Shown piece by piece: positions 3,522 to 58,646 of a stretch of DNA of 64,000 nt. Made by a program: the position numbers and the translations under genes. Within the stretch, counting starts at the first letter, position 1; the number at the start of each line of letters is the position of its first letter. The stretch comes from Saccharothrix australiensis. GTDB lineage: Bacteria; Actinomycetota; Actinomycetes; Mycobacteriales; Pseudonocardiaceae. The stretch lies in contig NZ_RBXO01000001.1 of the NCBI RefSeq assembly GCF_003634935.1, positions 2,691,501 through 2,755,500 of the forward strand. Direction: 5' to 3'. The notes beneath the pieces were generated by a model that saw only the letters and a program-made list of their open reading frames with translations, was not told the origin of the DNA and did no database searches.

Positions 3522-4678
3522 CCGACTTCGTGGAGAGCGCCGAGCGGCGGGCGCTGCGGGCGGCCGTCGCCGACCTGGCCGCCGGGTACGGGCCGGAGTA
3601 CTTCACGGCCAAGGCGCGGGCCGGGGAGAAGACCGACGAGCTGTGGGCCGACGCCGGCCGCCTCGGCTACCTCGGCGTGGCCGTGCCGGAGGAGTACGGC
3701 GGCGGTGGCGGCGGGATCGGCGACCTCGCGGCGGTGTGCGAGGAGCTGGCCGCCGCGGGGTGCCCCCTGCTGCTGATGGTGGTGTCGCCGGCCATCTGCG
3801 CGACCGTCATCGCCCGGTTCGGCACGGACGCGCAGCGGCGGCGCTGGCTGCCCGGCTTCGCCACCGGCGCGGTGAAGATGGGGTTCGCCATCACCGAGCC
3901 CGACGCCGGCTCGAACGCGCACCGGATCACCACCGCCGTCCGCCGCGACGGCGACGAGTGGGTGCTGTCCGGCGGCAAGCACTACATCTCCGGCGTGGAC
4001 GAGGTGGCGGCCGTGCTCGTCGTGGCCAGGCACGTCGACCGCGTCGGGCGGCGGCTGCTGCCGTCGCTGGTGGTCGTGCCGACCGACGCGCCCGGCTTCG
4101 CCCACCACCACATCCCGATGGAGGTCGTGTCGCCGGAGAAGCAGTTCACCTGCTTCTTCGACGACGTGCGCCTGCCGTCCGACGCGCTGGTGGGCGCCGA
4201 GGACGCCGGGTTGGCCCAGCTGTTCGCCGGGCTCAACCCGGAACGGATCATGGCGGCGTCGCTGGCGACCGGCATGGCCCGCCGCGCCCTCGACCAGGCG
4301 ACCGCCTACGCCCGGAGCCGCACCGTCTGGGACACCCCGATCGGCGCGCACCAGGGCGTGGCGCACCCGCTGGCGCAGTGCGCGATCCAGGTCGAACTCG
4401 CTCGGCTGATGACCCAGAAGGCCGCGGCTCTCTACGACGCTGGAGAAGACCGGGCTGCGGGGGAGGCGGCCAACATGGCCAAGTACGCGGCGGGGGAGGC
4501 GGTCGCGGCGACGGTGGACCAGGCCATCCAGGTGCACGGTGGCAACGGGTTGTCCTCCGAGTACGGACTCGGGGCGCTGCTCGCCGCGTCCAGGTTGTCC
4601 CGGATCGCGCCGGTCAGCCGCGAGATGATCCTCAACTTCGTGGCGCAGCACACGCTGGGGCTGCCGCGCTCCTACTGA
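3518..4678 (+). CDS. Acyl-CoA dehydrogenase
   Basis: A 386-residue flavoprotein of the acyl-CoA dehydrogenase family. Visible family features are the N-terminal helical domain with GVAVPEEYGGGG, the FAD/substrate beta-domain motif MGFAITEPDAGSNAHRI, the FDDVRLP segment, and the C-terminal QVHGGNGLSSEYG motif. The GTG start overlaps the carboxylase stop by four bases, so the three genes form an operon for oxidation and carboxylation of a branched or isoprenoid acyl-CoA. The C-terminal Y-E-G-T segment that carries the catalytic Glu in short/medium-chain enzymes is replaced by an APVSRE sequence. The base must therefore come from another position, as it does in isovaleryl-CoA dehydrogenase, or the chemistry differs. 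The C-terminus LGLPRSY is shared with some mycobacterial FadE proteins. Confidence 0.92.
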   Translation: MTDFVESAERRALRAAVADLAAGYGPEYFTAKARAGEKTDELWADAGRLGYLGVAVPEEYGGGGGGIGDLAAVCEELAAAGCPLLLMVVSPAICATVIARFGTDAQRRRWLPGFATGAVKMGFAITEPDAGSNAHRITTAVRRDGDEWVLSGGKHYISGVDEVAAVLVVARHVDRVGRRLLPSLVVVPTDAPGFAHHHIPMEVVSPEKQFTCFFDDVRLPSDALVGAEDAGLAQLFAGLNPERIMAASLATGMARRALDQATAYARSRTVWDTPIGAHQGVAHPLAQCAIQVELARLMTQKAAALYDAGEDRAAGEAANMAKYAAGEAVAATVDQAIQVHGGNGLSSEYGLGALLAASRLSRIAPVSREMILNFVAQHTLGLPRSY

Positions 4679-4693
4679 TCCGGGCCGACCGGG

Positions 4694-5656
4694 TCAGGCC
4701 CACTGCCAGCGCAGGCCCACCACACCCGGACCGAAGTCCAGGGCGACGGCGTACGCGTAGCCCCAGGTGTCCACGGGGGTCTCGCGCGCGTCGACGGGCT
4801 CGCCGCCGGCCAGGTCGGACGTGAACTGCTCGCAGCGCACCGGCCGGCACCGCGAGTCGTACCGCACTTCCAGCACGTACTCCCGCACCGGGTGCCGGAA
4901 CCGGCGCGAGTAGGTGTTGTCGTAGGTCGGGTGGTGGGGCGCGACGTGGATCAGCTCGTACTCCACCGCGGTGCGCTCACCCCTGCGCAGCGGACGGTCG
5001 AACAGCAGCTCGGCGATCATCAGACCGTTGCGCGGGTCGGCGGAAACCCGCCCCAGTCTGCACGAGCGCAGCGTGCCGATCACCGGCAGCGGGTCGCCCG
5101 GCAGGCGGGTGTCGTAGCCGAGCAGCACCCGGTCCACCCCGGCCCGCTCGGCCCGCAGCACCTGCCGCGACCGCACCCGGCGCGTGCTGCCGTCCATCGC
5201 CAGCTCGACCTGGTCCCGCAGGCTCAGCCGGGTCAGGTCCTGGTCGGTGCTCGTGTCGACGTCGGCGAGCAGCTCGGCCATCGACTCGTAGTCGCCCGCC
5301 GCCGCCCACCCCTCCGGGCCGGTCAGCCGCACCCGCGGCCGCGCCTTGCCGCGCGGGCGCGGCGGGCCGAGCAGCGTGCTCAACCCTCCCTCGCCGACCT
5401 CCAGGATCTCTTCGAGGTGGCCGACTGCGGTCAGTGAGTCGGGCCGTTCCGGACGGCGTCGCCCCGACTGCCAATAGCTCAGCGCGGCGATGCTCACCGC
5501 CACGCCGCGTGACCGCAGCTTGTGCTGGATGCGTTCCAGGCTCAGCCCTTTCGCCCGGATCGCCGATCGCAATGCGTCCGCGAAGGGGTCCGCTCCGGCG
5601 TCGATACGTCGGTGATCGCGTACCCGCGATTCCGGTCCGACGACTGGCGTTGGCAT
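4694..5656 (-). CDS. HTH (XRE-like) domain protein, putative transcriptional regulator
   Basis: A 320-residue protein. Residues about 24-75 form a predicted helix-turn-helix (FADALRSAIRAKGLSLERI, then a recognition helix ending SYWQSGRRRPERPDS). The remaining ~240 residues resemble no domain I can name; they hold many beta-strand stretches (VLLGYDTRLPGDPLPVIGTL; YAYAVALDFGPGVVGLRWQW) and may sense a ligand. It is convergent with the acyl-CoA dehydrogenase gene (15-bp gap) and divergent from the subtilase genes across a ~1-kb intergenic region. A repeated GTACAGCC motif in that region makes autoregulation and control of the proteases possible. That link is inference. Confidence 0.8.
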   Translation of the reverse strand: MPTPVVGPESRVRDHRRIDAGADPFADALRSAIRAKGLSLERIQHKLRSRGVAVSIAALSYWQSGRRRPERPDSLTAVGHLEEILEVGEGGLSTLLGPPRPRGKARPRVRLTGPEGWAAAGDYESMAELLADVDTSTDQDLTRLSLRDQVELAMDGSTRRVRSRQVLRAERAGVDRVLLGYDTRLPGDPLPVIGTLRSCRLGRVSADPRNGLMIAELLFDRPLRRGERTAVEYELIHVAPHHPTYDNTYSRRFRHPVREYVLEVRYDSRCRPVRCEQFTSDLAGGEPVDARETPVDTWGYAYAVALDFGPGVVGLRWQWA

Positions 5657-5716
5657 CTTCGCTCCGTTCTCCCGAGGACAAGGCGAGCGACGTTATCGTG
5701 GGAAATCACTCCGACG

Positions 5717-9465: not shown

Positions 9466-9687
9466 GTCGGATGCTTCTACCAGGTCTCCCGGAATTCGGG
9501 AAACCGCAGGTCACGAGACTTCTTCACGCTCGGTGATAACTGGCAATCTTTCGTTCTTGGCTTTCCCGTGGTAATGCTGCTTGAGTTGGTGACTGACAGC
9601 GAGGGCAAGGTGGCCCAGCGTCACGCCCGCTCCCTGCGCGCTCACGGCGGGCGGACGTCCGGTCACCGCATCGAGAACGGAATCTGC

Positions 9688-10875
9688 ATGCGACAGTCAC
9701 GACGGGTCCGGTTCCTGGCCGGTGTCGGCGCGACGGCCTTGGCCGCGGCCACGACCACCCTGTTGACCTCCCCCGCTCAGGCCGCCGAGGGCGAGATCCG
9801 CGCCGCCGACGCGGTCGAGAAGGTGCCCAACAGCTTCATCGTGAAGCTGAAGGACGACACGACCACCTCCGCCGCCGCGCTCGCGGGCCGGTACGGGGGC
9901 AAGGTCGACCGCGTGTTCGACAACGCGCTGCGCGGCTTCACCGTCTCCATGCCGGAGTCGGCCGCCAAGCGGCTCGCGGCCAACCCGGCCGTGGAGTACG
10001 TCGAGCAGGACCAGGTGTTCCACGTCCGGACCGACCAGAACAACCCGCCGTCGTGGGGCCTGGACCGGATCGACCAGCGGAACCTGCCGCTCGACAACAA
10101 GTACGCCTACACCTCGACCGGTCAGGGCGTGAACGTCTACATCGTCGACACCGGTGTGCGGGTCAGCCACTCGACGTTCGGCGGCCGGGCCCAGAACGGC
10201 TACGACGCCGTCGACCGCGACAACGTCGCCCAGGACGGGCACGGCCACGGCACGCACGTCGCCGGCACCGTCGCGGGCAGCCAGTACGGCGTGGCCAAGA
10301 ACGCCACGATCCACGCCGTGCGCGTGCTGGACAACAACGGCAGCGGCAGCACGGCCGGTGTCGTCGCGGGCATCGACTGGGTGACGAAGAACCACAAGAA
10401 GCCGGCCGTGGCGAACCTCAGCCTCGGCGGCGGCGCGTCCTCCACGATCGACAACGCCGTGCGGAAGTCCATCGCGGCCGGCGTCACCTACGCCATCGCG
10501 GCGGGCAACAGCAACACCGACGCCCGCAACTCCTCGCCGGCCCGAGTGACCGAGGCGATCACCGTGGGCGCGACCGAGCGCACCGACAAGCGGGCCAACT
10601 ACTCCAACTACGGCTCCGTGCTGGACATCTTCGCGCCCGGCTCCGACATCACGTCGTCCTGGCACACCAGCGACTCGGCGACCAACAGCATCTCCGGCAC
10701 GTCGATGGCGACGCCGCACGTGGCCGGCGCGGCGGCCCGCTACCTACAGAACAACCCCTCGGCGACGCCCGCCCAGGTGGCTTCGTACCTGGTGGGGCAG
10801 GCCACGCCGAGCAAGGTGACCAGCCCAGGCTCGGGCTCTCCGAACCGCTTGCTGTACCTGGCTCCCAGCGCCTGA
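9688..10875 (+). CDS. Secreted S8 (subtilisin-like) serine peptidase paralog 3, full catalytic set
   Basis: A 395-residue pre-pro-subtilase of the proteinase K type. A signal peptide ([27 protein letters not shown]) is followed by an I9 propeptide and a catalytic domain with Asp154 (IVDTGV), His187 ([10 protein letters not shown]), oxyanion Asn274 (IAAGNSN) and Ser339 ([15 protein letters not shown]). All key residues are canonical, unlike the two upstream paralogs. ATG 9688 directly precedes the signal peptide; the ribosome site is weak. A 220-bp divergent region separates it from the GNAT gene, and a strong terminator hairpin follows at 10899-10931, so it is probably transcribed alone. Confidence 0.94.
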
Positions 10876-10931: not shown

Positions 10932-11179
10932 CCCGGTTTCACGCCGAAAGCCCGAAGCCGGCGCCTCTCAGCTTTCCCGCCGGAAGTTGTCGGTGGCTCG
11001 TGGGACAATGGAACCGGGGGCCGGAGGCAACACCCGGAGGAAACGCCGGAACCGGGGTCGGACAGCGGTTGGGGTCGAGGTGAAGACTCGCCGATCCCGG
11101 CATTCCGCACTCGGCGATCCCCCCTTGCTTCCTGGTGCCCCAGCGCCCCGCGCGCTCCGCAGGGCGCTCCGCCGTGCGC

Positions 11180-11385
11180 GCGGCACAGACGTCGGGCCTC
11201 GTGCTCTCCCGTACGGCCTGCCCGCAGGGCAACCGCGCTTGTTTGGCCAGGTCAAGCACGCTTTTCGCTTGACCTGGCCAAACAAGGGTGGTGGTCTTCG
11301 ACAGGTCGTGCGGGAGAGCACGACGCCCTTCCCTCCCCCGGTGGCCTGCCCAGCGGCGAGCGCTTCTTTCGGCTGAGATCCGCAC
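11180..11385. repeat. Nested palindromic element, copy A1
   Basis: Outer 13-bp perfect arms (tcgtgctctcccg, 11199-11211; complement 11311-11323) enclose sub-terminal segments and an inner perfect palindrome. The inner arms are 19 bp (11238-11256 and 11268-11286) with an 11-nt loop. A conserved flank (cctgcccagcggcgagcgc, 11345-11363) follows on the right. The same architecture recurs, inverted, in copy A2. Copies B and C (46.8 and 44.3 kb) share flank and ends. The element lies in the convergent space between subtilase 3 and the cyclophilin gene and has no coding potential of its own. Confidence 0.85.
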
Positions 11386-11439
11386 GGAAGTTCTTCGATT
11401 TGTGCGGGTGCCTTCAGCGCGGAAGTCAATCGGTCCTGA

Positions 11440-11725
11440 GCGTCAAAGCCAAAAGCGACGCTCGCCGCTGGGCAGACCTCCGGGGAGGAAAAACAAAAAC
11501 AAGGGCGTCGTGTTCTCCCCGCATGGCCTGTCAAAGACCACCACAGTCGGTCAGGGGGCGCAAGCGGTGAAGCGTGCTTGCGCCCCCTGACCGACTGTGG
11601 TTGCCCTGCGGGCAGGCCATACGGGGAGAACACGAGACCAGAGGTCTGCGCGGGCGTGAGCAAGGGGCGGGGTCTGCGCCGCGTGGGCAAGGGTGGGGGT
11701 CTGTGCGGGGTGTCCGAGGCGGTGG
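11440..11725. repeat. Nested palindromic element, copy A2 (inverted relative to A1)
   Basis: Outer 23-bp arms (11508-11530 and 11613-11635, one mismatch that still allows a G-U pair in RNA) enclose an inner perfect palindrome with 24-bp arms (11541-11564 and 11577-11600) and a 12-nt loop. The conserved flank (gctcgccgctgggcag) is on the left, about 11460-11475, so A1 and A2 face each other with flanks in the middle. A G-rich tail with imperfect repeats (gtctgcgc / gtctgtgc, about 11640-11725) continues the similarity seen in copy B. The inner palindrome is unrelated in sequence to that of A1. Confidence 0.85.
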
Positions 11726-11726
11726 G

Positions 11727-12404
11727 TCACTTCTCCTCGACCTTGGTGAACTTGAGGTCCAAGCGGGGCAGGCCGTCGGTCGGGCCCAGGCCGGATTCCG
11801 GGCGGACGCCCTCGGCAGCGACCTTGTCGATCACGTCCAGGCCGCGGGTCACCTCGCCGATCACCGGGAAGTTCGGCGGGAAGGCGCTGTCCCGGTAGAC
11901 GATGAAGAACTGGCTGCCGTTGGTGCCCGGTGTGCCCCGGTTCGCCATCCCGATCACGCCGCGCGTGTAGTCCGCCTCCGCGGCCTCCGGGTCGTCGTAC
12001 TTGTACCCCGGCCCACCGACTCCGGTGCCGGTCGGGTCGCCGCACTGGATCAGCCAGATGCCCTCCGTCACCAACCGGTGGCAGGAGTGGCCCTCGTAGA
12101 AGCGCTGCTCCACGAGGTGCCGGAAGTTGTGCACGGAACAAGGCGCGGACGCCGCGTCGAGGGTGAGTTCGAGGTCGCCCCGGGTGGTCTTCACCGTGAG
12201 TGCGGTCCTGCCCTCCGCCGGCACGCCGTCGTCACTCGGAGCGGTGACGCGCGTGGTCGTCGTGGCTTCCGGGTCCCTGGTGTACTCGCAGTGCGTGGTC
12301 GGCACCGGCGGCAGGGGGCCCGCCACGGGCCTGCCCGGAACGGGCTGCGCGCAGCCGCTGGTCAGCAGGACCACCACCGCGGTCGATAACAGGCGTCTGG
12401 CCAC
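11727..12404 (-). CDS. Cyclophilin-type peptidyl-prolyl isomerase, lipoprotein
   Basis: A 225-residue exported isomerase. The N-terminus is a lipoprotein signal with lipobox LTSGC (MARRLLSTAVVVLLTSGCAQPVPG), then a ~45-residue linker and a cyclophilin domain (SVHNFRHLVEQRFYEGHSCHRL; GVIGMANRGTPGTNGSQFFI). It should catalyse cis-trans isomerisation of prolyl bonds in proteins folding outside the membrane. The gene is divergent from aspS, an arrangement I recall from other actinomycetes. The stop is only 2 bp from the end of the A2 repeat tail, so that repeat probably acts as the 3' end of the transcript. Confidence 0.93.
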   Translation of the reverse strand: MARRLLSTAVVVLLTSGCAQPVPGRPVAGPLPPVPTTHCEYTRDPEATTTTRVTAPSDDGVPAEGRTALTVKTTRGDLELTLDAASAPCSVHNFRHLVEQRFYEGHSCHRLVTEGIWLIQCGDPTGTGVGGPGYKYDDPEAAEADYTRGVIGMANRGTPGTNGSQFFIVYRDSAFPPNFPVIGEVTRGLDVIDKVAAEGVRPESGLGPTDGLPRLDLKFTKVEEK

Positions 12405-40632: not shown

Positions 40633-41978
40633 CGCGTCCCGGACGGGGTCCGCTCGGCGGACCCCGCCTCCGCCTTGGCGATCCGCAGCATCGCGCCGGC
40701 CAGGCCGATCATGGTGAACACCAGGCCGGTGGCCACGCCGAAGCCCAGCAGGTCGAACGTGATCGCCCCGATGCCGCCCGCCAGCACGGCGGACAGCACG
40801 CACGCCGCCAGGCCGCGCAGGTGCTCGTCCCGGCTGATCATCCGCACGCGGACCACCGCGAAACCCGCCGCCAGGAACATGCCGATCAGCGCGAACAGGC
40901 CGAGGTAGCCGTTCTCGATCAGGGTCAGCAGGAACTGGTTGTCCAGGATCGTGTACTTCGCCGGCAGGAACGTCCCGAAACCCCGGCCCAGCAACGGGTT
41001 CAGGTCGATCTGCTCGGCCGCCGCCGCGTAGTCCGCGGTGCGCGCCTTCACGCTCGGGTCGTCCTCGATGTTGGCGAACATCCCGCGCAGCGTGCCGAAC
41101 AGGCCCGGCACCACCAGGCTCGCGCCGAGGAAGAACCCGCCGCCGACGACCAGCGCGGTGATCTTCCGCCGCCGCGGCAGCGTGATCAGCATGACCACGC
41201 CGGCCACCGCCAGGACCACCAGCGCCGTGCGGGACAACGAGGTCATCGCGCCCAGGCCGCACAGCCCCAGGCACACCAGCCACCGGACGTGCGGCGTGCC
41301 CTCGTCGCGCGCCTTGAAGACGTAGTGCGCGCCCAGCGGCACGGCCACCGCGCACACCAGGCCGTACTCGATGGGGTGGTTGGTGGTGCCGGTGGGGCGG
41401 CGGAAGACCGACCGCGACTCGAACACCGCGTAGCCGTTCTCCTGCGTGCGCAGACCGGGGACGCTCACGTACCCGGCGAGGTCGACGCCCGTGCCGAACT
41501 GCACCAGGCCGATGAACGCGATGGCCGCGGCGCACCCGAGGACCAGCTTCAACACCTTGTCCAGGCGTTCCCTGGTGCGCACCGCGTCGCAGACGAAGAC
41601 GGCGACGCTGATCGTCGCGACGATCCGGACGATGCTGGAGTCGGCCACGGTCAGCTCGTCCACCGGCAGCCAGCGCCGGGTGGCGACGCCGTAGGTCGCC
41701 AGGTGCGCGGCCAGGTACAGGGCCACGGCGGTGCGCACGACGTTGAGGCCCTTGCCCATGCCCAGCGTGTCGACCATCTGCGCGGACAACCACAGCACGC
41801 CCAGCAGCAGGGCCAGCACCAGCGCGGGCGGCAGCGTCATGGGCACGAACGACAGCACCAGCCGGGCCGGGATGATCAGCAGCGCCAGGAGGTAGGCGCA
41901 GACCAGCGTCGCGCCGTCGGCCTTCCGCCGCACGCGCTGGAACCGCTCGGTCAAGGCCGTTCTTCGCTGGTCGGCCAC
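40629..41978 (-). CDS. O-antigen polymerase/ligase-like (Wzy-type) membrane protein
   Basis: A 449-residue polytopic protein with about twelve predicted helices and a large extracytoplasmic loop around residues 290-350 carrying GRGFGTFLPAKYTILDNQFL, the Wzy_C-type signature. It probably polymerises lipid-linked repeat units or ligates the glycan outside the membrane. The gene lies behind the Wzz-like gene with a 28-bp overlap, so polymerase and chain-length protein are co-expressed. It is convergent with the acetyltransferase gene (4-bp overlap). Confidence 0.88.
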   Translation of the reverse strand: MADQRRTALTERFQRVRRKADGATLVCAYLLALLIIPARLVLSFVPMTLPPALVLALLLGVLWLSAQMVDTLGMGKGLNVVRTAVALYLAAHLATYGVATRRWLPVDELTVADSSIVRIVATISVAVFVCDAVRTRERLDKVLKLVLGCAAAIAFIGLVQFGTGVDLAGYVSVPGLRTQENGYAVFESRSVFRRPTGTTNHPIEYGLVCAVAVPLGAHYVFKARDEGTPHVRWLVCLGLCGLGAMTSLSRTALVVLAVAGVVMLITLPRRRKITALVVGGGFFLGASLVVPGLFGTLRGMFANIEDDPSVKARTADYAAAAEQIDLNPLLGRGFGTFLPAKYTILDNQFLLTLIENGYLGLFALIGMFLAAGFAVVRVRMISRDEHLRGLAACVLSAVLAGGIGAITFDLLGFGVATGLVFTMIGLAGAMLRIAKAEAGSAERTPSGTR

Positions 41979-43048
41979 CCGGCTCGTGGGGCGGGCGGTG
42001 GCACGGCGATCTTCACCGTCCGCTCGCTCGCGGTCGGCTGGGCCTTGGGCAGGGCGCCGGGTTGGGCGTTCGGCCGCGCCCCCGTTTGCGCCCCCGGTTG
42101 CGCGCCGGCCTGCGGGTGCGGCGGCGCGGGTCGGGCCACCGGCAGCCCGCCCGGCGGCGTCGGCGGCTTGGCCGCGCTCGGCGGCGGCACCTGCACCGTG
42201 CGCTCGGCGGCCGTCGGCTGCGGGCGGCGCACCGGCGGGGCCGTCGACCGGCGCGGCGCGCCGTCGGCCTGCCCGCGGGCCTGGTGGTTGGTCGGCGGCG
42301 GGTTCGGCGTCTTCGGCGCGGGGCGGTCGTCGTCCTGCGGCGCCGCGTCGCGCGGCGCGGCGTCCTCGTCCGGGTCGGCGTCGTCCCCGGTCGTGCCCGC
42401 GGCCCGCTCCCGGCGACGGCGCAGGTGGTTGGCCACGCTGTCCGAGCCGAACGTCGCCGCCGTCGTCAGCAGCATGAGCAGCACGAACGCCGCGCCCGCG
42501 TACCGGACCTTGCCGCCGATCTGCGCCTCGGCCTCGGTCGGGTTCACGATCACCTGCGAGGTGATGAACGTCGACTCGGGCGCCTTCAGCTTGCGCTGCT
42601 GGTCCTCCAGCTCCTTGGCGGCGAACTCCATCACCGTCGTGACCATCTTCTCGGCCTGCTCGGGCGTCTCGCTGTCACCCGTGACGAACAGGAACGGGCC
42701 GTTCTGCCCGCCGCCGGTCGCCGTGAAGCTCGTCGGCGAGTCCTTGGCGATGCCCAGCTGCTCGCGGGTCTTCGGGTCGGCCAGGATCTGCGACAGGATC
42801 TGCGAGGTCGTCGCCAGGCTGCCGTCGAACGCCAGCAGCGGGTTGATCTTCACCGCTTCCTCGGGCGTGACCTTCTGCGAGAACGTGCCGCCCGCCGCGG
42901 GCGTGGTCAGCACCATCACGCCCGAGGATTGGTAGCGGGTCGGGATCGACAGGAAGACGCCGGCGGCCACCGCGACCGCGACCACCGCGGACGGCACGGC
43001 GACGTACCACCGCCTCCGCAGCGTCCGCACGGCACCCCAGAAATCCAT
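41951..43048 (-). CDS. Wzz-like chain-length/polysaccharide co-polymerase with Pro-rich C-terminal tail
   Basis: A 365-residue protein. An N-terminal cytoplasmic stub and TM1 (WYVAVPSAVVAVAVAAGVFL) lead into a ~130-residue extracytoplasmic Wzz domain (YQSSGVMVLTTPAAGG), then TM2 (VRYAGAAFVLLMLLTTAATF) and a ~160-residue Pro/Ala/Asp-rich cytoplasmic tail. No Walker motifs or tyrosine kinase domain are present. The tail holds two similar segments (TAAERTVQVPPP and TASERTVKIAVPPP) that could be phosphothreonine sites. It should set polymer length with the Wzy protein encoded downstream. Confidence 0.85.
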   Translation of the reverse strand: MDFWGAVRTLRRRWYVAVPSAVVAVAVAAGVFLSIPTRYQSSGVMVLTTPAAGGTFSQKVTPEEAVKINPLLAFDGSLATTSQILSQILADPKTREQLGIAKDSPTSFTATGGGQNGPFLFVTGDSETPEQAEKMVTTVMEFAAKELEDQQRKLKAPESTFITSQVIVNPTEAEAQIGGKVRYAGAAFVLLMLLTTAATFGSDSVANHLRRRRERAAGTTGDDADPDEDAAPRDAAPQDDDRPAPKTPNPPPTNHQARGQADGAPRRSTAPPVRRPQPTAAERTVQVPPPSAAKPPTPPGGLPVARPAPPHPQAGAQPGAQTGARPNAQPGALPKAQPTASERTVKIAVPPPAPRAGWPTSEERP

Positions 43049-43141
43049 CCGCTCCCCGATCCCCGTTTACCCTCGGTGCGTGACCACGAGGTGTTGTTAC
43101 TCTGAAATCGGCCGACTCGCGCCTTGTCGTTACAGGTGGTG

Positions 43142-44101
43142 ATGGATTTGGGTGCGCGTCGCATCGTGCTCGCCGTCAGCGCCATCGTACTGGTCGCCGC
43201 GGCCGGCGCGGTGTACGTGGCGGGGGTCGCGCAGGACCGGCCGGCGGCCCCGGCCGCCGCCGTGGACGCCGACCTGATGTTCGTGGAACTGGCGGACGGC
43301 CGGGGCCGGGTCGAACAGGTCGCGCTGGCCCGGCCGGAGACCCGCGGCGGCACGGACCTGGCGTGCCAGCGGGTGTACCGGGCCGGCGGCACGACCGTGT
43401 GCCTGCGCCTGGCCGGACCGGGCCCGAGCTACGCGGCCGAGGTGTCGCGCGACGGTGCGGTGGTCCGCACCGTCCCGCTGCCCGGCGTGCCGAGCCGGGC
43501 GAAGGTGTCGGCCTCCGGGCAGGTCGTGTCGTGGACGTCGTTCGTGACGGGCGACTCGTACTCGGTGCCCGGCGGGTTCTCCACGCGCACCGGCTACCTC
43601 GACCTGCGCAGCGGTGAGGCCCTGGAGTCGTTGGAGGGCTTCACCGCCGAGGTCGAGGGGAACCTCCACACGGCACAGGACGTGAACTACTGGGGCCTCA
43701 CGGTGGGCGCGGACGACCGGACGTTCTACGCGACCCTCGCCTCGGGCGGGTTCACGTGGCTGGTGAAGGGCGACCTGGTGGACCGGCGCGTGACGTCGCT
43801 GCGCCGCGACGCCGAATGCCCGTCCCTGTCACCGGACGGCACGAAGATCGCCTACAAGAAGCGCATCGGCCGGCTCGGCCCGTGGGACCTGGCGGTGCTG
43901 GACCTGAAGACGGGCGAGGAGCGGCGGCTGCCCGGCACGGCGGGCGTCGACGACCAGGCCACGTGGCTGGACGACGACCGCCTGGCCTTCGCGGCCGTGC
44001 CCAAGGGCGCCAAGCTGGCGGCCGTGCACGTGGTGCCCGCCGACGGCTCGACCCCCGCGCGACTCCTCGTCCCGGACGCCACCTCCCCGTCACCCCTCTG
44101 A
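43142..44101 (+). CDS. Membrane-anchored TolB-like beta-propeller protein
   Basis: A 319-residue protein with an N-terminal signal anchor (RRIVLAVSAIVLVAAAGAVYVAG in two parts) and a periplasm-like exterior domain of WD40/TolB-type repeats (SLSPDGTKIAYKKRIGRLG; GEERRLPGTAGVDDQATWLDDDRLAF). Such propellers bind proteins or glycans; no catalytic motif is visible. It is divergent from the Wzz gene across 93 bp. ATG 43142 is chosen for the signal anchor; upstream GTG (43136, 43139) and TTG (43124) codons are in frame. Confidence 0.78.
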   Translation: MDLGARRIVLAVSAIVLVAAAGAVYVAGVAQDRPAAPAAAVDADLMFVELADGRGRVEQVALARPETRGGTDLACQRVYRAGGTTVCLRLAGPGPSYAAEVSRDGAVVRTVPLPGVPSRAKVSASGQVVSWTSFVTGDSYSVPGGFSTRTGYLDLRSGEALESLEGFTAEVEGNLHTAQDVNYWGLTVGADDRTFYATLASGGFTWLVKGDLVDRRVTSLRRDAECPSLSPDGTKIAYKKRIGRLGPWDLAVLDLKTGEERRLPGTAGVDDQATWLDDDRLAFAAVPKGAKLAAVHVVPADGSTPARLLVPDATSPSPL

Positions 44102-44231: not shown

Positions 44232-44325
44232 GGCCTGGTCGCGCAGGTCGCCGGGGAAGGCGAGGCCCTTCGCTTTTCCGCCCCCGGCGGCCTGCCCAGC
44301 GGCGAGCGCATTTTTCGTCTTCGAC
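44232..44325. repeat. Palindromic element, copy C (degenerate)
   Basis: The conserved flank cctgcccagcggcgagcgc (44291-44309) and the adjoining cgaggccctt (44261-44270) match copy A1 in orientation, but the terminal hairpin arms are decayed (only cctggtcgcgcagg remains recognisable). It fills the convergent space between the TolB-like gene and the helicase-like gene. The rest of 44102-44378 shows nothing else. Confidence 0.75.
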
Positions 44326-44378: not shown

Positions 44379-46580
44379 CTACACCAGATCCCCAGCCCCG
44401 ACCGAAGCCCCGACCTCCGGCTCCACCAGTCCGCTCAACACTCGCGGCAGCCGATCCGAGTACAGGACCCCCAACCGCTGCGTCGCTCGGGTCAACGCGA
44501 CATAAAGCTCCGCCGCACCGCGCGGCCCCTCGGCGAGGATGCGTTCCGGCTCCACCACCAGCACGGCGTCGTACTCCAGCCCCTTCGTCTCCGACGCCGT
44601 CACCGCCCCCGGCACCCCCGGAGGCCCGATCACGACGCTGGTGCCCTCGCGACCCGCCTCGTCCCGGACGAACTCCTCGACGGCGGCGGGCAGTTCGTCC
44701 CCGCCGACCTGCCTCGCCCACGGCCGCACACCGCACGCGCGGACCGATTCCGGTGGCCGGACGTCAGGCGCGAACTCGGCGAGCACCCCGGCGGCGACGC
44801 TCATGATCTCCGCCGGCGTGCGGTAGTTCACCGTCAGCGACCGGTAGACCCAGCGGCCGGGCGCGTACCGGTCCAGCACCGCGCCCCACGACGTCGCGCC
44901 CGCGGCCGACCGGCGCTGGGCGAGGTCGCCGACCACCGTGAAGGACTTGCCGGGACAGCGCCGCATCAGCACCCGCCAGTCCATTTCGGACAGTTCCTGC
45001 GCCTCGTCGACCACGACGTGGCGGTAGGTCCAGTCGCGGTCCGCCGCGGCACGCTCGACCAGCTCGCGGGTGTCGCGCTCCACGAAGCGGTCCGCCAGGT
45101 CCTCGGCGTCGAGCAGGTCCGTGGCGAACAGGTGATCCTCGTCGTCCATCATGTCCTGCCGCCCGACGAGGCTGTTCAGCACGCCCTCGGCGTACTCGGC
45201 CTCCGCCTTCCGCCGCCGCTCGGCGGCCCGGTCGTCCGCCTTGTCCCGGCCGAGCAGGTCGACCAGCTCGTCCAGCAGCGGCACGTCCGACACCGTCCAG
45301 GCGGCGCCGTCCGCACGCGCCAGCGCCGGGTCGCCGCCCGCCGCCCGCAACCGCTCGGGTGACTCGTACAGCGCGGACAGCAGCGCTTCCGGCGTCAGGA
45401 CCGGCCACAGCTCGTCCAGCACGGCGGTGAACCCGTCGTCCTCCGCCAGCTCCTTGACCAGGTCCGCCCGCATGCGTTCCCACGCGTCGCGGTCGTCCCT
45501 GGTCAGCCAGCCGCGACCGATGCGGCCGATCGCCCGCTCGGTGAGCGCCCACGTGAGGACCTCGCTGAACACCGCGCGGGCCTCGTTGTGCGGCAGCCCG
45601 CTCGCGCGCGCCTCCTGCCTGGCCCACTCGGCGGTCTCGGCGTCGATCCGACCCGTGACGCCGCCCAGCTCGATCGGCACCGGGCGCTCCGGCAGCCGCT
45701 GCCGGTCGGCGACCGCCGCCGCCAGCACGTCGAGGATCTTCAGCGAACCCTTGAGGCGCGCCACCTCCGGCGCGTCCTCGGCGGTGACGCGCAGGCCGGG
45801 CACGAGGCTCCCGGTGGTCGTGAACACCACGTCGGACTCGCCCAGCGACGGCAGCACGCGGCCGATGTGGTTCAGGAACGCCGGGTTGGGCCCCACCACG
45901 AGCACGCCGTGGCGCTCCATCCGCTCCCGCTGGGTGTACAGCAGGTAGGCGACGCGGTGCAGCGCCACCACGGTCTTCCCGGTGCCGGGGCCGCCCTCGA
46001 TCACCAGCACGCCGGGGTGCTCGTGCCGGATGATCTCGTCCTGCTCGGCCTGGATCGTCGCCACGATGTCGCGCATGCCCTCGCCGCGCGGCGCGTTCAC
46101 CGCCGCGAGCAGCGCCGCGTCACCGCGCTCGTCGCCGCTCGGCCGGCCGAGCACCTCGTCGGTGAAGTCGACCACCCGGCGCCCGCGGGTGTGGAACTGG
46201 CGGCGGCGGCGCATGTTCTCCGGGTTCGCGGCGGTGGCGACGTAGAACGGGCGCGCCGCCGGCGCACGCCAGTCGAGCAGCACCGGCTCGTACTCGTTCC
46301 GGTCGTCGAAGAGTCCGATGCGGCCGATGTACGAGCGCTCGCCCGACACGCTGTCCAACCGGCCGAAGCAGAGCCCGTTGTCCACCATGTCCAGGCGCTT
46401 GACCTCCTTGGCCAGCGCGCGCACCTCGTCGTCCCGCTCCAGGGCCGTGCCGCCGTTGCCCCGCAACGCCGCTTCGTACTCGCCCTTCACCCGTGCGCGC
46501 TCGGCGTCGAGCCGCGCGTAGAGCCCGGCGATGTAACCGCGCTCGGACCGCAATTCCTCTTCGTACCCCTGGGTTGACAC
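44379..46580 (-). CDS. helR: HelD/HelR-type UvrD-like ATPase (RNA polymerase-associated)
   Basis: A 733-residue superfamily 1 motor-like ATPase. Walker A is GGPGTGKTVVALHR, Walker B region is HVVVDEAQELSEMDW, motif III VVGDLAQRRS, motif IV VNYRTPAEIM and motif VI LYVALTRATQRLGVLYS. The N-terminal ~190 residues (ELRSERGYIAGLYARLDAER coiled coil; SYIGRIGLFDD) match HelD, which enters RNA polymerase channels and recycles stalled polymerase. The actinobacterial HelR subgroup protects RNA polymerase from rifamycins. GTG 46580 gives the right N-terminus; gagggg lies 3 bp upstream, closer than usual. A 19-bp inverted repeat lies about 85-100 bp upstream. Confidence 0.85.
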   Translation of the reverse strand: MSTQGYEEELRSERGYIAGLYARLDAERARVKGEYEAALRGNGGTALERDDEVRALAKEVKRLDMVDNGLCFGRLDSVSGERSYIGRIGLFDDRNEYEPVLLDWRAPAARPFYVATAANPENMRRRRQFHTRGRRVVDFTDEVLGRPSGDERGDAALLAAVNAPRGEGMRDIVATIQAEQDEIIRHEHPGVLVIEGGPGTGKTVVALHRVAYLLYTQRERMERHGVLVVGPNPAFLNHIGRVLPSLGESDVVFTTTGSLVPGLRVTAEDAPEVARLKGSLKILDVLAAAVADRQRLPERPVPIELGGVTGRIDAETAEWARQEARASGLPHNEARAVFSEVLTWALTERAIGRIGRGWLTRDDRDAWERMRADLVKELAEDDGFTAVLDELWPVLTPEALLSALYESPERLRAAGGDPALARADGAAWTVSDVPLLDELVDLLGRDKADDRAAERRRKAEAEYAEGVLNSLVGRQDMMDDEDHLFATDLLDAEDLADRFVERDTRELVERAAADRDWTYRHVVVDEAQELSEMDWRVLMRRCPGKSFTVVGDLAQRRSAAGATSWGAVLDRYAPGRWVYRSLTVNYRTPAEIMSVAAGVLAEFAPDVRPPESVRACGVRPWARQVGGDELPAAVEEFVRDEAGREGTSVVIGPPGVPGAVTASETKGLEYDAVLVVEPERILAEGPRGAAELYVALTRATQRLGVLYSDRLPRVLSGLVEPEVGASVGAGDLV

Positions 46581-46689: not shown

Positions 46690-46880
46690 GCTCGGTGTCA
46701 AAGCGCAAAAGCGGGCGCTCGCCGCTGGGCAGGCCGCCAAGGAGTGGGAAGGGCGTCGTGTTCTCCCCGTATGGCCTGGTCGCAGGGCAGGCCATACGGG
46801 GAGAACACGAGGCGGGGCTGCTGTGCTGCGCGAGCAAGGGTCTGGGTCTGTGCGGCGCGGAAAGGGCTCGTCGTGGAGCG
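46690..46880. repeat. Palindromic element, copy B (simple hairpin, no inner palindrome)
   Basis: A perfect 23-bp inverted repeat (46756-46778 and 46788-46810, starting tcgtgttctccccgtatggc) with a 9-nt loop. It has the family flank gcgctcgccgctgggcagg (46715-46733) on the left and the G-rich gtctgtgcgg tail on the right. Compared with A1 and A2 it lacks the inner palindrome. It lies between the 3' end of a glycosyltransferase gene and the promoter of the HelR-like gene. The rest of 46581-46924 holds only the promoter region described. Confidence 0.85.
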
Positions 46881-54517: not shown

Positions 54518-55717
54518 TCAGGTGATTCGCCAAGCCAGCACGACGGTGACCGCCAGCGCCGCGATCGCGGTGTGCACCGCCACGCCGAACGAGGCGAACT
54601 GGAGGAGGAAGCCGAATCCGACCGAGGACACCAATCGGGTGAGGGCTTGACCCGTTTGGACGACGGAGATGCCCGACGCGCGCAAGGACTCGGGGACCTG
54701 GGTGCTCACGCGGGCGGGCAGCACCCCGTCCGTGGCGGCGTAGAACAGGCCGTGCAGCAGCAGCGCCGCGCCGACGCCGAAGTAGCCGGTGCCCGGCACG
54801 AGCAGCAGGGCGTACACGGCGAGCAGCAGCACGTGCCCGGCGAGGAACACCCGCCAGCGGCCCACCCGGTCCGCGAGCCTGCCGAGCGGCGCGGCGGCGA
54901 CCAGGAAGACCAGCGCGGTGCCCAGCGGCATCAGCGGCAGGGCGGCCTGCGGCACGTCGGTCGCCTTCTGCACCAGGATGAACACGAACGCGTCGGACAG
55001 CGTCGCGAGCCCCAGCACGGCCGCGGCGACGGTCACCCTGCGGTAGCCCGCGTCCTTCAGCAGCGCCAGGCCCGCCCGGACCGACGGCCGCGGACCGCCG
55101 CGCGGCTCGCCCGGCCGCTCCCGCACGAACGCGACCAGCACGATCAGGCCGATCACCGCGAAGCAGGCGCTGACCACGAACACCGGGCCGGCCACGATCC
55201 CGAGCTGGGCCAGCAGCAGGAACGTCACCAGCGGGCCGAGCAGCGCGCCCACCGTGTCCATGCCGCGGTGCAGCCCGAACGCCGCGCCGAGCCGGTCCGG
55301 CGGCGTGGCCAGGGAGATCAGCGCGTCCCGCGGCGCGGTGCGCAGGCCCTTCCCCGCGCGGTCGGCGGCCAGCGCCGCGCCGATGCCGAACGCGTTCGCG
55401 CCGACCAGCGGGAACACCAGCTTGGTCGCCGCCGACAGCCCGTAGCCGACGGCGGCGACGGCCTTGTGCCGGCGCGTGCGGTCGGACAGGTGGCCCCCGA
55501 CGAGCCGCAGCACCGCCGTCGCACCCGTGTAGAGCCCGTCCAGCACGCCGAACTGCGCGTAGCCGAGCTGGAGCGTGAAGAGCAGGTAGACGGGCATGAA
55601 CGCGGTGATCATCTCGGCCGACACGTCGGTCAGCAGGCTCACCGTGCCCAACGCGACCACGGTGCCGGGCACCTTGCCCTTGACCCGCTCGGCCGGTCGG
55701 ACGGAGGCGACGTACAT
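54518..55717 (-). CDS. Major facilitator superfamily transporter
   Basis: A 399-residue protein with twelve predicted helices. LTDVSAEMITAFMPVYLLFTL opens the domain, the motif A-like loop is GGHLSDRTRRHKA and the second-half counterpart is GRLADRVGRWRV. LRTAPRDALISLATPPDRLGAAFGLHRGMD (in parts) is typical of the actinobacterial YfkF/EmrD-like exporters often found beside natural-product or glycan genes. The substrate is unknown. It is divergent from the WecG-like gene across a region containing a near-perfect inverted repeat. Confidence 0.9.
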   Translation of the reverse strand: MYVASVRPAERVKGKVPGTVVALGTVSLLTDVSAEMITAFMPVYLLFTLQLGYAQFGVLDGLYTGATAVLRLVGGHLSDRTRRHKAVAAVGYGLSAATKLVFPLVGANAFGIGAALAADRAGKGLRTAPRDALISLATPPDRLGAAFGLHRGMDTVGALLGPLVTFLLLAQLGIVAGPVFVVSACFAVIGLIVLVAFVRERPGEPRGGPRPSVRAGLALLKDAGYRRVTVAAAVLGLATLSDAFVFILVQKATDVPQAALPLMPLGTALVFLVAAAPLGRLADRVGRWRVFLAGHVLLLAVYALLLVPGTGYFGVGAALLLHGLFYAATDGVLPARVSTQVPESLRASGISVVQTGQALTRLVSSVGFGFLLQFASFGVAVHTAIAALAVTVVLAWRIT

Positions 55718-55741
55718 GACCTCGATATCGGTGGCCCGGTG

Positions 55742-55787
55742 CCCCTGTTACCGCGTCGTCGATCACGTCGGCGCGGCGGTAACGGGG
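55742..55787. promoter_or_regulatory. Inverted repeat with GTTACCGC/GCGGTAAC arms between MFS and WecG-like genes
   Basis: Left arm cccctgttaccgc (55742-55754) and right arm gcggtaacgggg (55776-55787) pair with a single bulged base across a 21-nt centre. The position between two divergent starts suits an operator shared by both genes. The region is AT-richer than the genes. Confidence 0.4.
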
Positions 55788-55813
55788 ACCCGCCCGCGCC
55801 CGATGACGCGGAT

Positions 55814-56593
55814 ATGCCGCAGATCCCGCAGCCCCGCGTCCGCGTGGGCGCCGTCGACGTGTGGTCCGTCCGCGAGTCCGGCGTCGCCGAGCACGTCGCG
55901 CGGTCCTGGCGGCGGGGCGAGGGCGGCGCGATCGTCACCGCGAACGTGGACATCGTCCGCGCGGCGACCCGCGCGCCCGAGCTGGCCGCCCTGGTGGCCG
56001 AGTCCGACCTGGTCGTCGCGGACGGGATGCCCGTGGTGTGGGCCGGCCGCCTGGCCGGTGTGCCGGTGCCCGAGCGGGTCACCGGCGCGTCCCTGGTGTT
56101 CACGCTGTCCGGGGCCGCCGCGCGGGAGGACCGCGCCGTCTACCTGCTGGGCGGCGACACCGGCGTCCCGGAGAAGGCCGCCGGTGTGCTGCGGGCGCGG
56201 TTCCCCGGTCTGAGGGTGGCGGGCACCGACTCGCCGCCGTACGGGTTCGACACCGACCCGGAGGCGACCGCGCGGACCGTGGCGAAGGTCGTGGCGGCCG
56301 AACCGGACCTCGTGCTGGTCGGCCTCGGCTTCCCCAAGCAGGAGCGCCTGATCCGGCTGCTGCGCGCCGAACTGCCGCGCGCGTGGTTCCTCGGCTGCGG
56401 CGCGGGCATCCCGATGGCGGCGGGCGAGTTCCGCCGCGCGTCGGGCGTGGTGCAGCGGATGGGCGCGGAGTGGCTGCACCGCCTCGCGCTCGAACCGCGC
56501 CGCCTGGCCCGGCGCTACCTGCGCGACGACCTGCCGTTCGCGTTCCGCCTGCTGTCCGAAGCCCTCCGCCTCCGCCTCAGCCGGGAGAAGTGA
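55814..56593 (+). CDS. WecG/TagA/CpsF family glycosyltransferase
   Basis: A 259-residue enzyme with the family signatures VTANVDIVRAAT (TxNxD), VVADGMPVVWAGRLAG, RAVYLLGGDTGVPEKAA, PDLVLVGLGFPKQERLI and CGAGIPMAAGEFRRA. It adds the second sugar (such as ManNAc or its uronate) to a lipid-linked sugar. That makes it a likely early step after the priming transferase. ATG 55814 is the best start though its ribosome site is weak. It is followed 1 bp later by the GT2-GT4 fusion gene. Confidence 0.93.
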   Translation: MPQIPQPRVRVGAVDVWSVRESGVAEHVARSWRRGEGGAIVTANVDIVRAATRAPELAALVAESDLVVADGMPVVWAGRLAGVPVPERVTGASLVFTLSGAAAREDRAVYLLGGDTGVPEKAAGVLRARFPGLRVAGTDSPPYGFDTDPEATARTVAKVVAAEPDLVLVGLGFPKQERLIRLLRAELPRAWFLGCGAGIPMAAGEFRRASGVVQRMGAEWLHRLALEPRRLARRYLRDDLPFAFRLLSEALRLRLSREK

Positions 56594-56594
56594 C

Positions 56595-58646
56595 GTGCCG
56601 CTCGCCGTGGTCGTGGTGACCTACCGGAGTGCCGACGTGGTGGCGGCGTGCCTGGAGTCCGTCGCCGCCGCCCTGGAGCCCGTTCCGGACGGTCGGGTGA
56701 TCGTCGTGGACAACGCGTCCACCGACGACACCCTCGACGTCGTGGCGCGGGTCGCGCCCGACGCCCTGGTGGTGGCGCGACCGACGAACGACGGGTTCGC
56801 GGCCGGCGTCAACGCGGGCTTCGCCGCCGCGCCGGACTGCGACGTCCTCGTGCTCAACCCGGACGTGCGGCTCGCGCCGGACGCGATCACGCTGCTGCGC
56901 GCCGCGCTGGCCCGACCCGGCACGGGCATCGTCGCGCCCCGGCTCGCCGATGCCGACGGCAGCCCGCAGCTGTCCCTGCGCCGCGCGCCGAACCCGTTGC
57001 GCGCCCTGGGCGAGGCGCTGCTGGGCGGCACCCGCGCGGGCCGCTTCGCCGCGCTGGGCGAGCTGGTGGTGTCCCGGCGGCACTACGACGCGCCCGGCGC
57101 GGCGGACTGGGTGACCGGCGCCGCGTGGCTGGTGTCGCGCGAGTGCCGCGCGGCGACGGGGACGTTGGAGGAGCGCTACTTCCTGTACTCGGAGGAGACC
57201 GAGTACATGCTGCGCGCCGGCGAGCGCGGGTTCGGCGTCCGCTACGAGCCGCGCGCCCGCGCCGTCCACCTGGGCGGCGAGCAGTCGACGTCGCCGGTGC
57301 TGTGGTCGATGGCGACCACGAACCGGGTGCGGCTGGTGCGCGAGCGCCGCGGCCGACCGGCCGCGTTCGCGATGTGGTGCGCGGTGCTGCTCAACGAACT
57401 GCTCCGCGCGCCGCGAGCGCCCAAGCACCGCACGGCGGTCGTGGACCTGCTGCGGTGGCGGCGCTGGCCGGCCCGGCCCGGCGGCGCGCCCGGCTGGATC
57501 TGCTTCTCCGCCCAGGACTGGTGGTACCACAACCGGGCGCACTCGGACTTCCAGCTGATGAGGTCGGTCGCCGGACACCGGAAGGTGCTGGTGGTCAACA
57601 GCATCGGGATGAGGATGCCGACGCCCGGCAACAGCACGCACGTCGCCCGGCGCGTCCTGCGCAAGCTGCGCAGCGTCGCCAAGTTCGTGCGCCGTCCCGC
57701 GCCGGGTTTCCACGTCATGTCGCCGCTGCCGCTGCCGTTCTACGGATCGCCGTTGCTGCGCAAGGTGAACGCCGTCCTGGTGCGCGCCCAGGTGCGGCTG
57801 GTCGCGGCGGCGCTCGGGCTGCGCACCCCCGTCATCATGGTCACCATCCCGACCGCCTGGGACGTGGTGGCCCCGATGCGCAGGCACAGCCTGGTGTTCA
57901 ACCGCTCGGACCGGCACTCCGACTTCCCGGAGGCCGACCGCGCCGCGATCCGGGCCCTGGAGCACCGGCTGCTGGAGCACTCCGACCACGTCGTGTACGT
58001 CAGCCACGCGCTGATGGCCGAGGAGCGGGGCCGGACCGGCGACCGCGCCCACTTCCTGGACCACGGCGTCGACCTCGACCACTTCACCGCGCGCCCCGAG
58101 TCCGAATGGCCGCGCGAGGTCCGCGCGGTCGACGGTCCGCGCATCGGCTTCTTCGGCGCGCTGGACGACTTCGTGGTCGACTTCGACCTGCTGGAACGCC
58201 TGGCCGCCGAGCTGCCGGACGCGTCGCTCGTGCTGGTCGGTGACGCCACCCACCCGATGGAGCGGTTCGACAAGTACCCGAACGTCCACTGGTTCGGCTT
58301 CCGGCCCTACGAGGCGATCCCGGCGTGGGGCTCGGCGTTCGACGTGGCGATCATGCCGTGGCAGGACAACGACTGGATCCGGCACTCCAACCCGATCAAG
58401 CTCAAGGAGTACCTGGCGCTCGGGCTGCCCGTGGTGAGCACCGACTTCGCCGAGCTGGCCGCGTACCGCGACCGGGTGCGGGTGGCGCGGGGGCACGCGG
58501 AGTTCGTGGCGGCGGTGCGGCAAGCGCTCGCCGAGGGCGGCCCGCGGCCGGCGGAGGACCTGCGCGCGTCGGTCGCACCGTACTCGTGGCACTCGCGGGC
58601 GGCCGAGCTGGTGGCGCGGGCCGAGGCGCGTCGACCCCGGCGGTGA
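56595..58646 (+). CDS. Two-domain glycosyltransferase fusion (GT2 + GT4-like)
   Basis: A 683-residue protein. Residues 1-270 form a GT2 rhamnosyltransferase-like domain (LAVVVVTYRSADVVAACLES; VDNASTDDTLDVV; LNPDVRLAPDAI; YFLYSEETEYMLRAGERGFG). Residues about 330-683 form a GT-B domain (HRKVLVVNSIGMRMPTPGNS; DHVVYVSHALMAEERG; GFFGALDDFVVDFDLLERLA; MPWQDNDWIRHSNPIKLKEY). One polypeptide could thus add two sugars in sequence. GTG 56595 follows the WecG stop directly. The joining segment (270-330) contains hydrophobic/aromatic residues that may touch the membrane. Confidence 0.92.
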   Translation: MPLAVVVVTYRSADVVAACLESVAAALEPVPDGRVIVVDNASTDDTLDVVARVAPDALVVARPTNDGFAAGVNAGFAAAPDCDVLVLNPDVRLAPDAITLLRAALARPGTGIVAPRLADADGSPQLSLRRAPNPLRALGEALLGGTRAGRFAALGELVVSRRHYDAPGAADWVTGAAWLVSRECRAATGTLEERYFLYSEETEYMLRAGERGFGVRYEPRARAVHLGGEQSTSPVLWSMATTNRVRLVRERRGRPAAFAMWCAVLLNELLRAPRAPKHRTAVVDLLRWRRWPARPGGAPGWICFSAQDWWYHNRAHSDFQLMRSVAGHRKVLVVNSIGMRMPTPGNSTHVARRVLRKLRSVAKFVRRPAPGFHVMSPLPLPFYGSPLLRKVNAVLVRAQVRLVAAALGLRTPVIMVTIPTAWDVVAPMRRHSLVFNRSDRHSDFPEADRAAIRALEHRLLEHSDHVVYVSHALMAEERGRTGDRAHFLDHGVDLDHFTARPESEWPREVRAVDGPRIGFFGALDDFVVDFDLLERLAAELPDASLVLVGDATHPMERFDKYPNVHWFGFRPYEAIPAWGSAFDVAIMPWQDNDWIRHSNPIKLKEYLALGLPVVSTDFAELAAYRDRVRVARGHAEFVAAVRQALAEGGPRPAEDLRASVAPYSWHSRAAELVARAEARRPRR

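Follow-up and report, generated by a model that had tools for sequence, protein, structure and literature searches.

A dispersed family of paired cloverleaf palindromes in Saccharothrix and its possible role as a bidirectional transcript-end module

Several described systems bear a partial resemblance to the repeats reported here. The telomeres of Streptomyces contain palindromes with GCA-loop hairpins, and uptake-sequence repeats are said to occur as inverted pairs that double as terminators. According to the available excerpts of one account, REP, BIME and REPIN sequences are found chiefly downstream of genes, where the flanking open reading frames run in one direction or converge, and their G-T pairing is read as a sign of transcription (PMC3733652). 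REPINs are described, in the accessible part of a further source, as inverted doublets with a linker that spread within a genome (PMC3116915), and the available text of another paper presents pairs of uptake sequences as terminators (PMC1852404). Stem-loop families were surveyed across 40 genomes in 2008, and the available sections of that paper name Mycobacterium and Corynebacterium, and neither Streptomyces nor Saccharothrix (PMC2267715); the word Saccharothrix likewise does not occur in the main text of the RepRanger survey (PMC12306157). Literature searches on palindromic or stem-loop repeats between the genes of Saccharothrix, Actinobacteria, Pseudonocardia or Amycolatopsis, judged by titles and the first lines of abstracts and with most subscription papers outside their scope, brought up no description of the family that we present in the following.

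The starting point is a 64,000-nucleotide stretch of the Saccharothrix australiensis genome, hereafter the window, in which an initial annotation had described two large nested palindromes, A1 and A2, as separate copies of a repeat. Both palindromes are real and lie where they had been placed. The outer arms span 11194-11220/11302-11328 in A1 (27 nt, 89%) and 11508-11530/11613-11635 in A2 (23 nt, 96%). The inner arms, first given as 19 and 24 bp with loops of 11 and 12 nt, proved to be slightly different, with 26 nt each and loops of 9 nt in A1 (11232-11257/11267-11292, 92%) and 10 nt in A2 (11540-11565/11576-11601, 100%). Together with a middle, third palindrome (11336-11374/11447-11485), they constitute a single composite of about 450 bp, of which A1 and A2 are the two inverted units rather than independent copies or insertions.

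This composite lies between a gene for an S8 subtilase-family protease (9574-10875, plus strand), upstream of unit 1, and a convergent gene for a cyclophilin-type peptidyl-prolyl isomerase (11727-12377, minus strand), upstream of unit 2. Unit 1 (A1; 11195-11327, plus strand) reads as an outer stem, a mini-hairpin GCCC-GCA-GGGC, a central stem-loop and a second mini-hairpin GTC-TTC-GAC. It is followed by a tail at 11340-11369 on the same strand, in which the conserved motif GGTGGCCTGCCCAGCGGCGAGCGC precedes the T-rich stretch TTCTTT and which forms the left half of the middle palindrome. Unit 2 (A2; 11505-11638, minus strand) reads from right to left and has its tail at 11449-11481, with GGAGGTCTGCCCAGCGGCGAGC and then, further downstream on that strand, GTCGCTTTTGG; this tail is the right half of the middle palindrome. 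On the outer flank of unit 2, the similarity among copies persists over 11639-11653, the end being approximate. A covariance model, whose own sequences include both units, matches unit 1 with an E-value of 4.3e-32 (11196-11326) and unit 2 with 4e-39, and a chance origin of the two palindromes is excluded. Reading the middle palindrome as a third type of cloverleaf was rejected, given its weak model match (E 5.7e-4); it is better read as two tail motifs face to face. A scan of positions 11000-11800 against Rfam yielded no match at the gathering score, and 17 weak ones at E<=5, 13 of them to microRNA models.

Each unit of the family has the anatomy of a four-way-junction cloverleaf of about 134 nt, with a 22-bp outer stem, two mini-hairpins and a 26-bp central stem that is closed by a conserved loop. 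In the palindromes of the window, the bases at the junction between the outer and inner stems appear asymmetric, and the copies of relatives revealed them to be the two mini-hairpins; therefore, the palindrome is a cloverleaf. The first mini-hairpin has a C(GNA)G loop and occurs as GCCC-GCA-GGGC with the variants GGGC-GCA-GCCC, GCC-GGA-GGC and GCGC-GCA-GCG, while the second, GTC-TTT-GAC, has the variant GCC-TCC-GGC. In an alignment of 59 units from nine genomes, 43 of them from S. australiensis, 99.1% of the 3220 cells in 55 pairs are paired. Two-sided changes occur in 35 of these 55 pairs, compared with 21.7 in shuffles, and the covariation score is 0.422 as opposed to 0.137 in shuffled alignments and at most 0.085 with partners slid. 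The mini-hairpins covary as well: two pairs of the first show two-sided changes, in 9 and 11 units, respectively, as does one pair of the second in 9. As read from the alignment, the first mini-hairpin lacks its last C in seven units, all seven of which have an extra C before CAGG, and both of these C's are present in four others. For six single units from S. australiensis and three relatives, RNAfold prefers a long bulged hairpin over the four-way form, whereas four of eight more distant copies (L300-L303) fold directly into the cloverleaf. The conserved apical loop, ACGCTTYACC/ACGCTTTTC, gives a direction to 220 of the 253 units; the remaining 33 are omitted from the strand, tail, gene-side and motif counts below.

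The initial annotation had anticipated more than four copies in the genome, and this is borne out. A search of the whole S. australiensis genome (7.86 Mb, three contigs) with A1, A2 and the middle palindrome places the A2 unit at no fewer than 16 other sites with at least 95% identity, eight of them at 98-99%. With up to 134 candidates scored, the covariance model yields 128 matches, counted on both strands, as a palindrome can match the model on either. A search with an asymmetric signature found 50 palindromes in the first 36 segments, and in the S. australiensis DNA examined, we called 58 units in 37 clusters. On contig C1, no copy was found between 2.74 and 5.09 Mb among the best 40 candidates per search or the exact matches, apart from weak matches to the motif alone, while copies are spread across the rest of the chromosome. 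Since dnaA is located at 0.33 Mb, this gap of 2.35 Mb lies roughly opposite to it.

The family is centered on the genus. Among the matches listed in a pattern scan, 118 of 120 carry Saccharothrix in their titles; a single match in Streptomyces sp. NTH33 (L167) lies within what we read as protein-coding sequence and was discarded as a unit. The model matches 22 of 25 Saccharothrix genomes at E<=0.001, nine strongly, with match counts that are lower bounds for G006, G011 and G016, and 13 only at about 2e-11 to 9e-17; three are without a match. One of the carriers, G023, has 96 matches. In a sample of 80 genomes of the family Pseudonocardiaceae, with up to 42 candidates scored, the threshold of E<=1e-6 is reached by 15, of which 12 belong to genera other than Saccharothrix. 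Two genomes of this sample have many copies (G050 with 35, G127 with 13) and five a single match; the single weak matches may be chance hairpins. By eye, seven of eight distant examples carry the tail motif. In another genus of the family (G026), which the model did not report in this search, 26 bases identical to the tail motif lie beside what resembles a related, diverged cloverleaf (L101, about 1490-1720).

The units are typically arranged in pairs, usually just past the ends of genes. Ninety-eight of 159 clusters consist of two units, and all 81 adjacent pairs in which both units could be oriented are tail to tail. With genes called by a trained codon model made in this analysis rather than taken from a curated annotation, 211 of the 220 oriented units have an upstream gene, which is co-oriented in 159 cases, and these units start at a median of 96 nt (interquartile range 67-128) from its stop codon. 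The other 52 lie at a median of 242 nt from the start of a gene. In the window, unit 2 fits this pattern, with the stop of the cyclophilin gene about 89 nt away; the protease stop codon lies about 320 nt before unit 1, beyond the usual 67-128 nt. Genes were called on both sides of 139 of the 159 clusters, 68 of which are flanked by convergent, 63 by tandem and only eight by divergent genes. By contrast, in the S. australiensis stretches examined, divergent regions account for 25,393 of the 76,816 bases of element-free intergenic DNA, almost twice the 13,508 bases between convergent genes. At several composites of this species, degenerate tandem repeats with a period of about 26 bp (GGTCTGTGCTGCGCGGTGC...) run outward past the right-hand unit.

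Sequence comparison of the copies gives the same order from the outside inward: cloverleaf, spacer, conserved motif and T-tract. The motif, GGNGGYCTGCC...GGCGA... or GGCCTCNNGGCC, follows 212 of the 220 oriented units: 56 of 57 in S. australiensis, 108 of 112 in S. algeriensis, all 36 in S. tamanrassetensis, 10 of 13 in RH59 and both units from two other genomes. The pattern had been widened after initial misses, which raised the S. australiensis count from 50 to 56 of 57; with the same widened pattern, a control on the outer side of the units returned 1 of 218 and 0 of 218 in the two reading directions. At least five T per 12 nt occur in 91% of 141 distinct tails, compared with 1.6% of background 12-mers. 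The cloverleaf ends tens of bases before this tract. The short hairpin directly beside it is no more stable than shuffled sequences in S. australiensis and S. tamanrassetensis (mean z -0.06 and -0.15), less stable in RH59 (M1; +1.35) and more stable in S. algeriensis (-2.06 and -1.23), so that the element does not look like a textbook intrinsic terminator in S. australiensis. One S. tamanrassetensis element is accompanied, as judged by eye, by a GC-rich hairpin of the ordinary kind.

The stems themselves carry a strand bias. On the unit's own strand, 9492 cells are Watson-Crick pairs and the others comprise 288 G.U, 19 A.C and 189 further mismatches; stems with less than 75% Watson-Crick pairs were skipped in this count, and the 189 result in part from gap-free pairing. 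Cell counts include inherited changes many times over; with each change counted once per genome and sequence context, there are 60 G.U and 19 A.C. A pair has its units on opposite strands, and so the single strand that folds is, in each unit, the one entering from outside. G.T pairs are tolerated in single-stranded DNA, too, and the asymmetry alone is no proof of RNA.

Given these observations, we consider it probable that the unit is a structured RNA module at the 3' end of transcripts, that the pairs constitute bidirectional transcript-end modules and that the unit has been copied around the chromosome. The transcript of the upstream gene would run into the unit, and the nascent RNA would fold into the cloverleaf. 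The 3' end of the messenger would then be formed at the T-tract, or be protected there from 3' exonucleases; on the basis of sequence, termination and 3'-end protection would both fit. A tail-to-tail pair could thereby serve both of two convergent genes and limit read-through, and the units may spread as discrete pieces and be overwritten by gene conversion or re-insertion, in S. australiensis without a Y1/RAYT transposase. The suggestion of a modular structured RNA or terminator, which had been offered as a second possibility for A1 and A2, is thus strengthened by the excess of G.U over A.C, the placement after co-oriented genes and the conserved T-tract. Speaking against such an RNA module are the hairpin at the T-tract, which in S. 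australiensis does not exceed shuffled sequence in stability, the distance of the cloverleaf from this tract, the preference of RNAfold for a long bulged hairpin in the six single units, the 189 further mismatches, the 52 of 211 units that do not follow a co-oriented gene, the large distance between unit 1 of the window and its gene, and the fact that a transcript running through a pair contains one unit in sense and the other in antisense. A broader version of the idea, which we hold only tentatively, is that the cloverleaf RNA is the recognized 3'-end signal of hundreds of Saccharothrix messages, mobile, arranged in bidirectional pairs and continuously homogenized by a dedicated machinery other than RAYT, with a long history in the Pseudonocardiaceae.

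Alternatively, the family could be a non-autonomous mobile element, similar to REPINs or MITEs, for which spreading is the only function; the fold would then be that of a single-stranded DNA intermediate or an enzyme target, and the position after genes would merely reflect harmless insertion. The high identity of the dispersed A2 copies is in line with this, as is the arrangement in inverted doublets with a linker, which the accessible text on REPINs describes for these elements as well (PMC3116915). Similarity among copies fades about 20-30 nt beyond the outer stem. Where the flanks of S. australiensis sites could be matched to those of other species, with filled and shared sites read from block coordinates, we found 10 shared pairings at eight S. 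australiensis sites. Fourteen elements of other species lie at 13 places without a called unit in S. australiensis, five of which were checked in the sequence, and one S. australiensis pair is absent from S. algeriensis, as seen in the sequence itself. No target duplication could be recognized at these sites, the intergenic flanks being too diverged to show one, which may speak against a mobile element. One more locus (L148, about 5290-5710) carries a pair of units in S. algeriensis, in whose place S. australiensis has a distinct tandem array with repeats of about 150 bp, as judged by eye.

The shared sites also provide information on the fate of older copies. In 17 of 17 comparisons, which involve 15 S. 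australiensis units and nine of the ten shared pairings (L258, from Saccharothrix sp. ALI-22-I, was omitted), the best paralogue is more similar (0.88-1.00) than the orthologue (0.70-0.90), the narrowest case being 0.908 versus 0.900; the paralogue is the best of 57 and the orthologue one of one or two, which somewhat favors the paralogues. A non-orthologous unit of the other species is likewise closer than the orthologue in 15 of the 17, with one tie and one exception. Hence, orthologous identity has been lost among the copies at old sites, which either overwrite each other or are replaced. The spread of the units is shown as a pattern, not as a process.

A REP-type transposase, the obvious mobilizer of such repeats and one which the initial annotation had proposed to look for, is missing in S. 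australiensis: PF01797 (Y1/RAYT), the sole transposase family searched, has no match there or in the carriers G006, G009, G010, G011 and G016, all with many copies. It is present in five of the 25 Saccharothrix genomes (G013, G015, G018, G019 and G023), of which G023 has many copies of the unit, whereas G018 and G019 have few; among 14 named genomes used as controls, it was found in 5. The Y1 genes of G023, G018 and G019 could be taken in favor of a mobile element, and their absence from S. australiensis and five carriers against it. Moreover, harmless insertion predicts neither the short and narrow distance from the stop codon on the coding strand nor the conserved T-tract. We regard spreading as the sole function as rather unlikely.

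A function at the DNA level appears improbable. Extruded cruciforms or four-way junctions might act as landmarks that guide supercoiling, nucleoid proteins or the organization of the chromosome, and the long, near-perfect palindromes, their placement between convergent genes, where torsional stress meets, and the gap in the copies found in S. australiensis, roughly opposite dnaA, would be compatible with that. C(GNA)G loops also have special stability in DNA. However, a double-stranded cruciform predicts equal numbers of G.T and A.C on each strand, in contrast to the 288 and 19 observed, and the one-sided T-tract would be unexpected.

The main idea put forward for A1 and A2 was that a constant palindromic frame accepts interchangeable palindromic inserts as its core. 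The description behind it, a dispersed family with a constant frame, variable cores and core-less copies, is supported by our analysis. In the mobile palindrome that was proposed to accept inserts, the mobility is backed by dispersal to filled and empty orthologous sites, while the inserts or swapped cores find no support, the cores differing by compensatory steps in an alignable stem. The inner palindromes of A1 and A2, which had appeared completely different, can be aligned in every column; their base and tip are constant, and the loop (ACGCTT..C) is conserved. More generally, the cores differ among units yet align in register, their CCAC/GTGG base, CAAGC/GCTTG tip and loop being nearly constant. 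In S. australiensis, one outer arm occurs with eight cores in 27 copies and another with eight in 20 copies. Cores common to both outer-arm classes are rare, with one of 25 in S. australiensis and none of 28 in S. tamanrassetensis; the corresponding 0 of 33 in S. algeriensis has no test value, as that species has a single unit of the second arm class. Cores that occur with more than one outer-arm 11-mer number 3 of 33 in S. algeriensis and 2 of 28 in S. tamanrassetensis, and the arms in question are mostly one base apart. In sets of variants like ..CCAGAGG.., ..CCGGAGG.. (with a G.U pair) and ..CCGAAGG.., the stem seems to have drifted by compensatory change, with G.U pairs as intermediate steps. 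Thus, core exchange is possible without being the main source of variety, and what look like exchangeable cores are for the most part versions of a single stem that drifts through compensatory change. Although the two arms with many cores, the one core shared between arm classes and the cores with several 11-mers speak for interchangeable inserts, the conserved length, base, tip and loop of the alignable cores, the compensatory steps, the rarity of sharing across classes, the single-base differences between arms elsewhere and the lack of any visible mechanism make them very improbable.

Two further copies in the window, B and C, had been described as an outer palindrome without a core and as a decayed copy, and both descriptions hold. 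B consists of the outer stem alone (46753-46813, minus strand; model E 5.9e-12), with its tail motif at 46714-46738 and a T-rich stretch next to it on the minus strand. C is a core-less remnant at about 44238-44316 (plus strand), with the tail motif at 44286-44309 and a T-tract at 44311-44315; it is absent from the model matches at E<=10, whereas the middle motif matches it with an E-value of 8.8e-9, and the remnant is legible in the sequence. B and C read best as products of deletion or decay. Between them lies a gene for a UvrD-like helicase according to Pfam (44379-46580), which we take to be HelD-like. The notion that this gene was inserted as cargo into a pair of units was dropped as unneeded, because C follows a plus-strand gene ending at 44101 and B a minus-strand gene ending at 46925, each thus lying after a gene of its own. 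The coordinates of the three genes near B and C derive from gene calls by GC bias, whose translations were then scanned with Pfam; one of them has only a borderline match to PD40. A complete pair on the S. algeriensis contig L263 was considered as a counterpart at the place of C and dismissed, because the two matching blocks have opposite orientations. On this contig, regions corresponding to 40669-43928 and 54518-58636 of the window, which are about 10.6 kb apart there, adjoin with a changed relative orientation, and the pair of units (4278-4679) lies between them, so that the junction of the rearrangement coincides with an element.

If our reading is right, these units offer a system in which to ask directly whether a dispersed repeat pays its way by forming or protecting the ends of messages, by what means repeats spread without RAYT and how long-standing copies come to be overwritten in concerted evolution. 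Should a role at transcript ends be demonstrated, they would also provide defined bidirectional insulator parts for the engineering of actinomycetes.

In comparison with known systems, the units are, like those of Streptomyces telomeres, actinomycete palindromes that carry C(GCA)G mini-hairpins, but they are interspersed along the chromosome beside genes rather than telomeric. With uptake sequences, they share the occurrence of a repeated sequence in inverted pairs, the Saccharothrix unit being far larger and structured. As in MITEs, their ends are discrete, fading over 20-30 nt, and orthologous sites are found filled and empty. They are akin to Rho-independent and bidirectional terminators in that a structured RNA would be followed by a U-tract downstream of genes, the T-tract lying downstream of the structure on the coding strand, and in that tail-to-tail pairs would serve both directions; unlike in such terminators, however, the hairpin at the tract appears weak in S. 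australiensis, a large cloverleaf with a conserved apical loop precedes it, and the whole is a homogenized, dispersed repeat. They are also like the REP, BIME and REPIN sequences of the GTAG- and CGTC-tagged families, which, as far as the available texts on them go, are likewise dispersed extragenic palindromes that occur as inverted doublets (81 of 81 in our case), lie preferentially between unidirectional or convergent genes and show G-T pairing. Those palindromes measure 20-40 bp, whereas the Saccharothrix unit is a cloverleaf of about 134 nt with a T-tract tail, in S. australiensis without a Y1/RAYT gene. The family is accordingly REPIN-like, but not a REPIN. If our reading is true, it would represent an actinomycete counterpart of REP and REPIN sequences, independently evolved, much larger and built around a four-way-junction RNA.
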